From Propionispira raffinosivorans DSM 20765 (GTDB lineage Bacteria > Bacillota > Negativicutes > Selenomonadales > Selenomonadaceae): 64,000 nt of DNA. Position 1 is the first letter of the stretch. Each line of letters starts with the position of its first letter. Location: the NCBI RefSeq assembly GCF_000381065.1, contig NZ_KB905851.1, positions 1 through 64,000 on the forward strand, written 5' to 3'. A program made the translations under genes and the position numbers. Under the pieces are notes generated by a model that was not told where the DNA came from, ran no database searches, and saw only the letters and a program-made list of their open reading frames with translations. This document shows, piece after piece, positions 18,398-59,352 of the stretch.

Positions 18398-18712
18398 ATG
18401 TTTGATATGATTCGCAAGATATGGAAGGTTGGTACGGTGACTCGAAGGCAGCCATTTTCTGCGGCACCATTAAAATATAAAGGTAAAATTAAAATAAAAT
18501 TTGTGCCGAAGACCAATTGGGCCGAATGTGCGGCGGCTTGTCCAAGTAGAGCGCTGATCATAGATGCTGGGCAGGTACGGTTATTCTATGGCAATTGTAT
18601 TATGTGTGGAAATTGTGTACGAATATGCAATACGGATGCAATTATACAAACGAATGATTGCTATTTAGCAGCTATGGATAAAAACAAACTTTGGGCGGCT
18701 GTGACGATATAA
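18398..18712 (+). CDS. hyfH: Polyferredoxin-like hydrogenase subunit (HyfH type), reduced
   Basis: This is a small iron-sulfur protein between the large and small hydrogenase subunits, expected to pass electrons to or from soluble carriers. It is about 104 residues, much shorter than HyfH/HycF. The second motif CIMCGNCVRICN is a complete CxxCxxCxxxC. The first is reduced to WAECAAACP, which keeps only the third and fourth cysteines. One [4Fe-4S] cluster should still be liganded (three cysteines from motif 2 plus CP of motif 1), while the other lacks two ligands. The start at 18398 follows AAGGGGAAATAGGT. An in-frame codon at 18380 lies too near the hyfG stop. Confidence 0.85.
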   Translation: MFDMIRKIWKVGTVTRRQPFSAAPLKYKGKIKIKFVPKTNWAECAAACPSRALIIDAGQVRLFYGNCIMCGNCVRICNTDAIIQTNDCYLAAMDKNKLWAAVTI

Positions 18713-18734
18713 TGGCAAAAAAGGAGAAATTCTG

Positions 18735-19199
18735 ATGAATGAAGAACTAGGAAAAGACATGAAAGCACGAATTACGAAAGTCTTAGGCGGCTCTTTACAT
18801 ATTCGTCATGTAGATACGGGGTCTTGTAATGGCTGTGATTTTGAAATGGGAGCTTTGTCTAATCCCATTTATGATATTTCTCGTTTTGGTGTGAGTTTTT
18901 CAGCATCGCCTCGTCAGGCGGATATGCTGATGGTAACGGGCGGTGTGACGAGAGCCTTACAAAAAGCACTGCTTAGAACATATGCTGCGGTGCCCAATCC
19001 TAAAATTGTTTTGGCAGTGGGAGCTTGTGCGATCGGTGGGGGGGTTTTTGGCGAAACGTATGCCAATGCGGGCGGCATTGATCAATTTGTGCCGGTTTAT
19101 GTCTATATACCAGGCTGTCCGCCAAGACCGGAAGCTTTGATGCAGGGGATCTTGAGCGCAATTGATAAATATGAAGAAGTTTTAAAGCGGGGGAACTAA
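18735..19199 (+). CDS. hyfI: Hydrogenase-4 small subunit (NuoB type)
   Basis: This electron-transfer small subunit carries the proximal [4Fe-4S] cluster. At 154 residues it is NuoB-sized and shorter than HyfI, which fits the compact Coo/Ech-like arrangement. The four cysteine ligands are visible: GSCNGCDFE (two), GACAIGGG (one) and PGCPPRPE (one). AAGGAG lies eight bases before the ATG. The next gene starts two bases after this stop. Confidence 0.93.
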   Translation: MNEELGKDMKARITKVLGGSLHIRHVDTGSCNGCDFEMGALSNPIYDISRFGVSFSASPRQADMLMVTGGVTRALQKALLRTYAAVPNPKIVLAVGACAIGGGVFGETYANAGGIDQFVPVYVYIPGCPPRPEALMQGILSAIDKYEEVLKRGN

Positions 19200-56482: not shown

Positions 56483-57637
56483 ATGAAAACTTTTAAATTG
56501 ACAAAAGAGGAAACACAGGATTTAGCAGAGAGGTTTCAGACGCCGCTAGTGGCGATCTCTTTGGAACAAGTAGAGTATAATTACCAATTTTTACGAACGC
56601 ACATGCCAAGGCTTAGGGTGTTCTATGCAATGAAATCAAATCCGGCAGCGCCGATTGTTGGCAAGGTGGCGGAACTGGGAGCAAGCTTTGATGTTGCCTC
56701 GGATGGTGAAATGCGCCAACTGACAGCAATGGGGGTCGCCGCGGATCGTATGATTTATGCAAATCCTTTTAAAACGCCACAGGGAATGACGCTAGCGGCA
56801 AAAATTGGTGTGAATAAATTTACGTTTGACAGTGAGAGTGAAATATACAAAATGGCGAAGTATGTACCGGGTGGTACGGTTTTACTTCGTTTAAGGGTAG
56901 ACAATCCGAAAGCGCTTATTGATTTGAATAAAAAATTCGGGGCAGCACAAGAGGATGCACTGCATCTTTTGCGTATTGCCAGACAGCAAGGGCTTGATGT
57001 TGCTGGATTATGTTTTCATGTTGGAAGCCAGTCGCTTTCAATGGATGCACATAAAGAAGCATTTCGAATTTGTCGTGAGGTTTTTGATCAGGCCAAGGCA
57101 GAAGGTTTTGCGCTTCATATTCTTGATATTGGGGGCGGACTGCCAGTTCCAGCACCGGATATGAATTTTGATTTGCTGGAAATGGCACAGGAAATCAATG
57201 AACAGATTGAAACATTGTTTCCGGATACAGAGATTTGGGCAGAGCCGGGACGTTATATTTGTGGAACGGCGATGAACCTAATAACGAGCGTTATGGGATT
57301 GCAAGATCGTAATCACCAGCCGTGGTATTTTCTTGATGAAGGTCTTTATGGTACCTTTTCCGGGGTTATCTTTGATCACTGGGAGTATGAGTTGGAAACA
57401 TTCAAACAAGGTGAACTAACACCTGCGACTTTTGCCGGGCCAAGTTGTGATTCAATTGATATTTTATATCGAGACCGTATGAGTGTGCCTCTGGCCATTG
57501 GTGATCTTATTTTAGTGCCAAACTGTGGTGCATATACGTCGGCTTCAGCAACGGAATTCAATGGGTTTGCTTTAGCAAAGATGGTTGTTTGGGAAGAAGT
57601 AAAACACATAGAGAAAGCCGTTGAAGCTGTAGGCTAG
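56483..57637 (+). CDS. Type III PLP decarboxylase (lysine/ornithine decarboxylase)
   Basis: This alanine-racemase-fold decarboxylase has 384 residues. The PLP lysine is in VFYAMKSNP, with FDVASDGEM, the HVGSQS loop, LDIGGGLPVP and AEPGRY for phosphate binding. The catalytic cysteine is in CDSIDILYRD. Its sequence is close to the Selenomonas ruminantium lysine/ornithine decarboxylase (IYANPF, LDEGLYG, FDHWEYEL), so cadaverine or putrescine production is expected. In Negativicutes these diamines are attached to peptidoglycan. The ATG has GGGAG upstream. The leader of about 130 bases shows no known riboswitch. Confidence 0.9.
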   Translation: MKTFKLTKEETQDLAERFQTPLVAISLEQVEYNYQFLRTHMPRLRVFYAMKSNPAAPIVGKVAELGASFDVASDGEMRQLTAMGVAADRMIYANPFKTPQGMTLAAKIGVNKFTFDSESEIYKMAKYVPGGTVLLRLRVDNPKALIDLNKKFGAAQEDALHLLRIARQQGLDVAGLCFHVGSQSLSMDAHKEAFRICREVFDQAKAEGFALHILDIGGGLPVPAPDMNFDLLEMAQEINEQIETLFPDTEIWAEPGRYICGTAMNLITSVMGLQDRNHQPWYFLDEGLYGTFSGVIFDHWEYELETFKQGELTPATFAGPSCDSIDILYRDRMSVPLAIGDLILVPNCGAYTSASATEFNGFALAKMVVWEEVKHIEKAVEAVG

Positions 57638-57659: not shown

Positions 57660-57845
57660 ATTAAAAATTTAGGCAGTATATCAAATGCGATTGTTGTTTT
57701 AATTGTTTTGGCGGCAATTTATGTAAAAATGAACGATGCTGGTGCGGATGCAATTTTTCGAGGTTCGGATATCTACATTGTGGTAGGAGCCGTACTGGCA
57801 CTTGTAGTACTTAAGATTTTTTACAGTCATAGAAATAAAAAATAG
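57660..57845 (+). CDS. Small two-helix membrane protein with a probable ATT start
   Basis: This open frame of 61 codons (57660-57845) has no ATG, GTG or TTG near its beginning. The first candidate is ATT at 57660, with AAAAAGGTGATC ending three bases before it (AGG about seven bases away). The product is a membrane protein with two hydrophobic helices, AIVVLIVLAAIYVKM (about 11-25) and IYIVVGAVLALVVLKIFY (about 38-55), joined by an acidic loop (NDAGADAIFRGSD), with a basic end SHRNKK. The reading frame has sensible codon use and ends at a hairpin that doubles as terminator. I do not recognise a family. It lies just after the decarboxylase gene. Confidence 0.55.
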   Translation: MKNLGSISNAIVVLIVLAAIYVKMNDAGADAIFRGSDIYIVVGAVLALVVLKIFYSHRNKK

Positions 57846-57882: not shown

Positions 57883-58041
57883 AAGTGGATAACTTTGCAT
57901 TATTACAAAGTTATCCACTTTTTTATCCACAAATAACCTCTGATTGTGGATAACTATGTGAGAATAGTAAAAAAACTGCAATAAAACAGATATATAAGCT
58001 GTGGATAAGGAGTTATCCACAGCTTATATATCTGTTGATAA
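57883..58041. promoter_or_regulatory. DnaA-box cluster in two long inverted repeats
   Basis: Four perfect DnaA boxes (TTATCCACA or its complement) lie at 57923-57931, 57945-57953, 58000-58008 and 58013-58021. Three one-mismatch boxes lie at 57884-57892, 57911-57919 and 58033-58041. Two inverted repeats hold most of them. Repeat A has 15-bp arms at 57883-57897 and 57906-57920, followed by T's, so it may also end the upstream transcript. Repeat B has perfect 23-bp arms at 57986-58008 and 58013-58035 with a GGAG loop. A/T-rich DNA follows up to 58173. No dnaA or dnaN is nearby. Confidence 0.88.
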
Positions 58042-58173
58042 CTTTAGAGATATATTTTATATTTGCGTTGTTCATAAATCAAGGCTAAAATTACAAATAC
58101 ATAAGTGCAGTAAATTACAAGAATTTGTTGTAAAATAAGACATATAAAATAAAATTTTAGGCATGGTGAATAT

Positions 58174-59352
58174 ATGGATGAAAAAATTGAAGAATTTAGC
58201 GAAAAAACACTGAATTGTATTTTACGTGAAACTGTAGATGCAATGGAAAACAGTAAAACACAAATTTTTGACATTTATGAAGGGGCTCGCAGTGAAGTAG
58301 AACATATTCAAATGGATATCAAAGAAGTGAAAGAAAAAGTATATGAAGTAATTGAAAAAGTAGATCGATTGGAAATTGAGGAACAAGCCGCTAAACAAAA
58401 ACTGGTTCGTGTGAGCAGAAATTTTAAATCTTATACGGAGTCTGATATTCAAAATTGTTATGAAGCTGTCAAAGATGTCCAGATTCGGCTGGCTATTGCC
58501 CGCGAACAAGAAGAGCATTTACGTCATCGCCGCGATACACTGGAAATTCGGCTGCGGAAACTTGCAGCAACCGTGGAAAAGTCAAAACATCTGGTTGTTA
58601 AAATTGGGGTCGTTTTAGGTTATTTGAGTTCACAAATCAATGCGGTTGTGACACAGATTGAAATGCTGAATCAGGATAAAATGCTTGGGGTGCAAGTAAT
58701 CAAAGCCCAAGAAACTGAACGGCTGCGTGTTTCCCGTGAGATTCACGATGGACCAGCTCAAACGATTGCAAATTTGATTTATCAATCCAGTATTTGTGAA
58801 CGGATGATTGATATTGATTCCGATGAAGCAAAAGCCGGGCTTCAGGAAATTCGTCGTCAAATTCGTCATTGTTTAGGTGAAGTTCGCCGTATCATCTTTG
58901 ATTTAAGGCCTATGTCCTTGGATGATTTGGGGCTTGTAGCGACGGTGGATCAATTTTTAGGGAAACTAAAAACACGTGGCAATTTGTCAGTGGCTTTTAA
59001 TGTTGAAGGTATAGAAGTTAAAATTAATCAATATGTTGAAGTAAGCATTTTTCGGATTATTCAAGAAGCGTTAAATAATATTTATCGGCATGCGGAGTCT
59101 CCTTCAGCAGAACTTCGCTTGATTTACGGAAAAGAGTATATGTCAGTTGTCATTAAAGATATTGGCAAAGGATTTTTAGTTGATCAGCCTCATGATAACG
59201 AGGAACAAAATGGTTGTTTTGGTCTTATGGGAATGAAAGAGCGGGCTGCGATAATTCACGGGCAGCTTTTAATCGATTCAAAGCCAGGCTGTGGTACAGA
59301 AATCCGTTTGCTAGTACCGTTAAGTGAAGTTTGTGAATCGGATATTAAATAG
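58174..59352 (+). CDS. DegS-like sensor histidine kinase
   Basis: This is a soluble two-component kinase of 392 residues. A long N-terminal coiled-coil sensor (about 25-185) is followed by HisKA_3 dimerisation/phosphoacceptor (ETERLRVSREIHDGPAQTIANL with the phospho-His) and an HATPase_c domain (FRIIQEALNNIYRHA, then IKDIGKGF and GCFGLMGMKERAAIIHG). The layout matches Bacillus DegS (cytoplasmic, no membrane helix). No response-regulator gene is next to it, unlike degSU. The start follows a DnaA-box cluster. It lies 16 bases before the next decarboxylase gene. Confidence 0.9.
   Translation: MDEKIEEFSEKTLNCILRETVDAMENSKTQIFDIYEGARSEVEHIQMDIKEVKEKVYEVIEKVDRLEIEEQAAKQKLVRVSRNFKSYTESDIQNCYEAVKDVQIRLAIAREQEEHLRHRRDTLEIRLRKLAATVEKSKHLVVKIGVVLGYLSSQINAVVTQIEMLNQDKMLGVQVIKAQETERLRVSREIHDGPAQTIANLIYQSSICERMIDIDSDEAKAGLQEIRRQIRHCLGEVRRIIFDLRPMSLDDLGLVATVDQFLGKLKTRGNLSVAFNVEGIEVKINQYVEVSIFRIIQEALNNIYRHAESPSAELRLIYGKEYMSVVIKDIGKGFLVDQPHDNEEQNGCFGLMGMKERAAIIHGQLLIDSKPGCGTEIRLLVPLSEVCESDIK

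Follow-up and report, generated by a model that had tools for sequence, protein, structure and literature searches.

Gene context and composition of the array

The window, that is, the whole 64,000-nucleotide stretch that was analyzed (G000:C13:1-64000), belongs to contig 13 of the genome of Propionispira raffinosivorans DSM 20765, a 4.13-Mb draft in 60 contigs. It contains a gene for a PLP-dependent decarboxylase of the Orn/DAP/Arg decarboxylase family (56483..57637, plus strand), which is the conserved left neighbor, and a gene for a DegS-type sensor histidine kinase (degS; 58174..59352, plus strand), and between the two lies an array of DnaA boxes (57884-58041, 159 bp). The genes on both flanks run rightward, as the preliminary description had stated. 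degS is followed by genes for an Orn/Lys/Arg decarboxylase, tmk, a DUF327 protein, holB, and a PSP1 protein (ricT-like), and the open reading frames farther right were read as a methyltransferase, rsmI, metG, tatD, a yabE-like gene, rnmV, and ksgA. We take this order to be that of the origin-proximal yaaO-tmk-holB-yaaT-metS-ksgA block of Bacillus subtilis, which suggests a similar position for the array. Between the decarboxylase gene and the cluster, positions 57660-57845 hold an ORF-like stretch for a membrane-type peptide of ~60 amino acids that is absent from the aligned relatives outside the genus.

The array is composed of seven boxes, four of which are perfect copies of TTATCCACA and three of which carry one mismatch. 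Box 1 (57884..57892, minus strand; TTATCCACT, one mismatch) lies within the left arm of a palindrome, repeat A, and box 2 (57911..57919, plus strand; also TTATCCACT, one mismatch) opens a conserved triad that is completed by two perfect TTATCCACA boxes: box 3 (57923..57931, plus strand), 12 bp past box 2, and box 4 (57945..57953, minus strand), which faces box 3 at 22 bp and box 2 at 34 bp. Boxes 5 (58000..58008, minus strand; 55 bp past box 4) and 6 (58013..58021, plus strand; 13 bp past box 5) are likewise perfect copies of TTATCCACA, and box 7 (58033..58041, minus strand; TTATCAACA, one mismatch), 20 bp past box 6, overlaps the −35 element of one predicted promoter. Box order and spacing read − 27 + 12 + 22 − 55 − 13 + 20 −. 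When the 64-kb window was simulated 300 times with a first-order Markov model, the number of boxes with at most one mismatch per 159 bp reached a maximum of 4 (once) and that of perfect boxes never exceeded 1, compared with the observed 7 and 4. The box count and these simulations confirm the earlier claim that seven boxes in about 160 bp, four of them perfect, are beyond chance. The window array is an extra-oriC DnaA-box cluster, with consensus boxes packed in noncoding DNA outside oriC.

Genome-wide, 79 perfect boxes were counted versus 31 for the reversed control, and in the DnaA protein encoded in the genome, the box-reading helix-turn-helix retains its GGRDHTTVIHA signature. A weak second match to the Bac_DnaA domain (contig 2, 269780-270082, L002; E value of 3.8e-7, in a 252-amino-acid frame) is probably another AAA+ protein and no initiator.

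Two perfect palindromes overlap the boxes. Repeat A (57883-57897/57906-57920; 15+8+15) holds boxes 1 and 2 and is followed by T6, and repeat B (57985-58008/58013-58036) is a 24+4+24 palindrome, one pair longer than the 23+4+23 previously given; the earlier reading of repeat A as a 15+8+15 terminator stands. Repeat A with its T6 scores as a plus-strand terminator and probably ends the decarboxylase transcript, and terminator-like hairpins are called on the minus strand too. Both palindromes show strong RNA folding (z values of −8.0 and −12.7). A structured RNA was ruled out, as an Rfam search retrieved no match. Two candidate promoters on the plus strand could drive degS: a predicted TTGATA-17-TATATT (58035..58063), which overlaps box 7, and a weaker TTGCGT-17-TAAAAT read from the sequence ~25 bp beyond the first, which is found in Megamonas too.

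Conservation of the boxes and their spacing

The arrangement of decarboxylase gene, boxes, and degS with the array in place is found in P. arboris (G001), Massilibacillus (G025), Megamonas (G024), and the records G028, G036, G040, G054, and L078, and these array-bearing relatives span several other families. In an eight-sequence alignment, box 4 is invariant at all nine positions and box 2 nearly so, and the remaining boxes are present in most sequences. The sequence between the boxes has diverged. A comparison of this spacer among Negativicutes had been proposed in the preliminary description as a check, and its outcome is that the spacers have diverged around 9-mers with little or no variation; judged from this alignment, the boxes are under selection. 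Of repeat B, relatives keep the inner box pair alone, the outer arms being Propionispira specific, and in G028 and G025 a separate terminator hairpin lies immediately upstream of the boxes. The long palindrome as a functional unit was ruled out because conservation in the eight-sequence alignment is limited to the boxes. With conserved boxes and diverged arms, the palindromes are largely by-products of facing boxes and of lineage-specific extension.

The link between the array and degS is looser. The array is absent from 23 of 30 degS loci, and the many cluster-free degS loci within the family of Propionispira itself (f1) show that the degS-side site is evolutionarily dispensable. Conversely, at L091 the array precedes okr and tmk, degS being absent from the stretch of the locus that was examined, and at L214 a gene resembling a response regulator lies between the array and degS. 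The gene and the cluster thus separate both ways, so control of degS is not the conserved role.

The spacing of the triad recurs at other loci: the two tandem boxes are 12 bp apart, the third box faces the nearer one at 22 bp, and the outer two boxes are 34 bp apart. The same 12/22 triad occurs in G028 and G029, within their left-arm clusters, and it is also found beside dnaA in some other bacteria. An unbiased scan of 250 genomes of the class sought pairs of facing perfect boxes separated by 3 to 33 bp; among the matches listed outside family f15, a count that leaves f1 aside, 17 of 32 facing pairs lie at exactly 34 bp (12+22), and these come from 9 of 12 families. The preferred facing spacings in f15 are 12 and 14 bp.

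The Propionispira genome contains further clusters of related grammar on contigs 5, 9, and 26. The contig 5 cluster (117492-117807; L034:7492-7807) is larger than the window array, with seven perfect boxes and several one-mismatch boxes in ~315 bp, and includes two copies of the 12/22 triad, both in reverse order. It adjoins an amino acid permease gene, and nearby lies a gene for a ~100-amino-acid protein without a Pfam family; elsewhere in Negativicutes, the gene of this protein directly precedes clusters of this kind at no fewer than 15 loci. The contig 9 cluster (103713-103870; L035), between an arsR-type regulator gene and a threonine-deaminase-like gene, reads − 27 + 12 + 22 − 55 + 22 + 11 −, repeating the 27-12-22-55 of the window despite different flanking genes. 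The contig 26 cluster (18631-18764; L037) lies upstream of an mgtC-like gene. A mobile or plasmid origin of the array is judged unlikely, given that it sits in conserved synteny across several families and that DNA-level repeats in the Propionispira genome are confined to the box arrays themselves.

Similar neighborhoods were seen in other genomes. In the Anaerovibrio-type records L061, L065, L121, L134, and L135, a cluster lies close to a related threonine-deaminase-like gene, and a cluster upstream of an mgtC-like gene is also present in Pectinatus brassicae (L070), L211, and L218. On contig 18 of the Propionispira genome (40533-40557; L036:7533-7557), two perfect boxes face each other at 16 bp immediately upstream of rplM-rpsI, and facing pairs with this 16-bp spacing also occur in G025, G028, and G040.

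Position of the clusters relative to oriC

The window lacks dnaA and dnaN, as the preliminary description had noted, and both genes are located on contig 33 in the setting yidC-rnpA-dnaA-dnaN-recF (assignments other than dnaA are from translations). Boxes lie on both sides of dnaA there, and the dnaA-dnaN spacer contains an AT-rich stretch as well as the DnaA-trio run TAGTCGTCGTAGTCGTAG (L033:8222), which adjoins a box on the lower strand. A search of the window spacer for a DnaA-trio found none. GC skew, proposed earlier as a check and here measured on selected stretches of the genomes, turns from negative to positive at dnaA on contig 33 and is uniformly positive across the window, with no switch. 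In G028, the skew changes sign at dnaA (~2.07 Mb), and the cluster, at 1.732 Mb, lies within a uniformly negative stretch. The window cluster is not the replication origin, since it has neither the skew switch nor the trio and AT-rich unwinding region of an oriC. In a separate observation, two full dnaA-type genes were found ~3 kb apart in a pair of genomes from the same genus (f15/g57; G091:C1:172-3608 and G114:C4:585920-589409).

As the Propionispira genome is a draft, distances to oriC were measured in relatives. The cluster at degS lies +340 kb from oriC in G028 (+0.17 replichore) and +211 kb in G040 (+0.16 replichore), and a second cluster is located on the opposite arm, at −409 kb and −304 kb, respectively. 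A sequence-only covariance model of the module retrieved matches in 209 of 250 Negativicutes genomes, and in 28 closed or nearly closed genomes the matches were placed with respect to dnaA (most genome sizes being rounded to 0.1 Mb). In every one of these 28 genomes, the best extra-oriC match falls no farther than 0.3 replichore from dnaA (median, 0.12), the genomes being related and so not independent. Single perfect boxes, in turn, are distributed uniformly with respect to dnaA in G028 and G029 (Kolmogorov-Smirnov P values of 0.52 and 0.92, indicative only). The origin-proximal rule holds across many genera. Across the class, the neighbors of the module include the ~100-amino-acid protein of no known family, the threonine-deaminase-like gene, the mgtC-like gene, and others. 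Because the presence of the module near oriC persists while its gene partner changes, a genome-level role in replication control is favored over regulation of degS.

Function of the array and comparison with known systems

Several readings of the array were weighed. That it is a displaced or secondary chromosomal origin, one branch of the earlier interpretation, is scarcely credible. The boxes are dense and the perfect ones outnumber those of the dnaA-linked oriC, but the uniform skew and the trio-free spacer of the window, together with the skew switch and the box-trio-AT-rich unwinding site at dnaA-dnaN on contig 33, argue against it, as does the skew of G028, whose sign change is at dnaA, with the cluster 340 kb away. 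The canonical, dnaA-linked oriC lies elsewhere, and the window as an origin was ruled out by GC skew, dnaA location, and the missing trio. It is also very improbable that the palindromes are mere terminators or RNA hairpins in which the box sequences are incidental: repeat A with T6 would serve well as a terminator and strong folding is predicted for both palindromes, yet it is the 9-mers that are conserved and not the stems, the boxes are kept in relatives that own a separate terminator hairpin, and Rfam gave no match.

A third reading would make the boxes mainly an operator, with DnaA bound upstream of degS repressing or activating the DegS-like kinase and so coupling signaling to replication status. 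DnaA regulates sda and ywlC in B. subtilis. Several B. subtilis clusters sit in DnaA-regulated promoters (PMC4447404), and the window cluster, 133 to 290 nucleotides upstream of the degS start, with a predicted −35 element overlapping box 7, would fit such a role. Set against this are the 23 of 30 degS loci without the array, the array without degS at the examined L091 locus, the intervening gene in L214, and the same module beside unrelated genes within the Propionispira genome and throughout the class, which make the operator reading unlikely. A side effect on transcription of the downstream gene, here degS, is possible; the replication-linked control of the kinase that had been suggested may thus exist in this organism, but the 23 array-free loci, L091, and L214 speak against it as a conserved function.

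A role beyond that of a passive sink is suggested by the fixed spacing. The module could be an active DnaA-remodeling site like DARS (ADP release) or datA (ATP hydrolysis) of Escherichia coli, and both the rigid spacing common to nonhomologous loci and the triad, which has the DARS core topology, are in line with this. The facing distance is, however, 22 and not 14 bp, and B. subtilis has neither datA nor DARS loci (PMC13220808), so that this reading is rather improbable. More speculatively and more broadly, the origin-proximal rigid modules of the class might build a specific DnaA complex that actively switches the nucleotide state or assembly of DnaA, as an independent counterpart of datA and DARS in a Firmicutes-type system; this is a tentative idea with a modest chance of being correct.

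The array is probably a DnaA-sequestering initiation-control site of the B. subtilis cluster type and has several counterparts in the Propionispira genome; clusters of this kind lie near oriC across Negativicutes. Of the readings in the preliminary description, the titration or regulatory locus, for which datA and the Bacillus clusters had been named, is the best supported, in the form of a B. subtilis-type extra-oriC cluster with putative DnaA binding. In B. subtilis, DnaA binding is strongest at oriC and at six extra-oriC clusters with 4 to 11 sites each (PMC4447404), and deletion of all six leads to early initiation (PMC5295017; PMC13220808). Sequestration is the likeliest function because these clusters are strongly bound by DnaA and their joint deletion advances initiation, and by this analogy we infer DnaA occupancy, sequestration, and an effect on initiation timing for the array. 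It would bind DnaA with high affinity, about seven molecules assembling in a defined arrangement on the noncoding DNA. Owing to its presumably origin-proximal position, it would be duplicated soon after initiation, and the duplicated array would leave less free DnaA for renewed binding at oriC, so that premature reinitiation would be held back.

According to a 2026 review, Hda, SeqA, datA, and DARS are all missing from B. subtilis, and the existence there of factors that regulate DnaA nucleotide exchange is an open question (PMC13220808). Initiation timing in Firmicutes-type bacteria is an open question, and a spaced module that is conserved over many families and lies consistently near oriC bears on it, as it provides a defined substrate DNA together with a rule of spacing, number, and distance to oriC for comparative work. 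The open-access literature offered no description of the 12/22-bp triad or the 34-bp facing pair for the B. subtilis clusters and nothing relevant on DnaA boxes in Negativicutes, most subscription journals lying outside the scope of the search.

Among known systems, the bipartite oriC of Firmicutes (regions upstream of dnaA and between dnaA and dnaN) has clusters of the same 9-mer, as does the window, whereas the window cluster is without dnaA or dnaN, trio, unwinding region, or skew switch. The datA locus of E. coli is likewise a noncoding DnaA-box cluster that lies close to oriC and limits reinitiation, with fewer consensus boxes than the window array; it depends on IHF and acts through hydrolysis of DnaA-bound ATP. 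DARS acts through ADP release. DARS sites are defined by three boxes at fixed spacing with box I opposite to boxes II and III (PMC5742627). The order is box+ 14 box− 12 box− in both DARS1 and DARS2 of E. coli and box+ 22 box− 12 box− in the window triad. The topology, a single box opposed to a tandem pair spaced by 12 bp, is shared, but with a facing distance of 22 versus 14 bp the window triad departs from the 14/12 spacing and is not filed as a DARS, and its predicted effect on initiation would be the opposite. The DnaA-box clusters of B. subtilis (ywcI/vpr, gcp/ydiF, trmE, ywlC, yqeG/sda, and yydA) differ from the Negativicutes sites in locus and neighboring genes, their spacing having been compared through published descriptions. 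Like the array, they are intergenic, contain 4 to 11 boxes, occur several to a genome, and in some cases lie upstream of genes; they are described as oriC proximal, a position measured for the Negativicutes clusters in the closed or nearly closed genomes.
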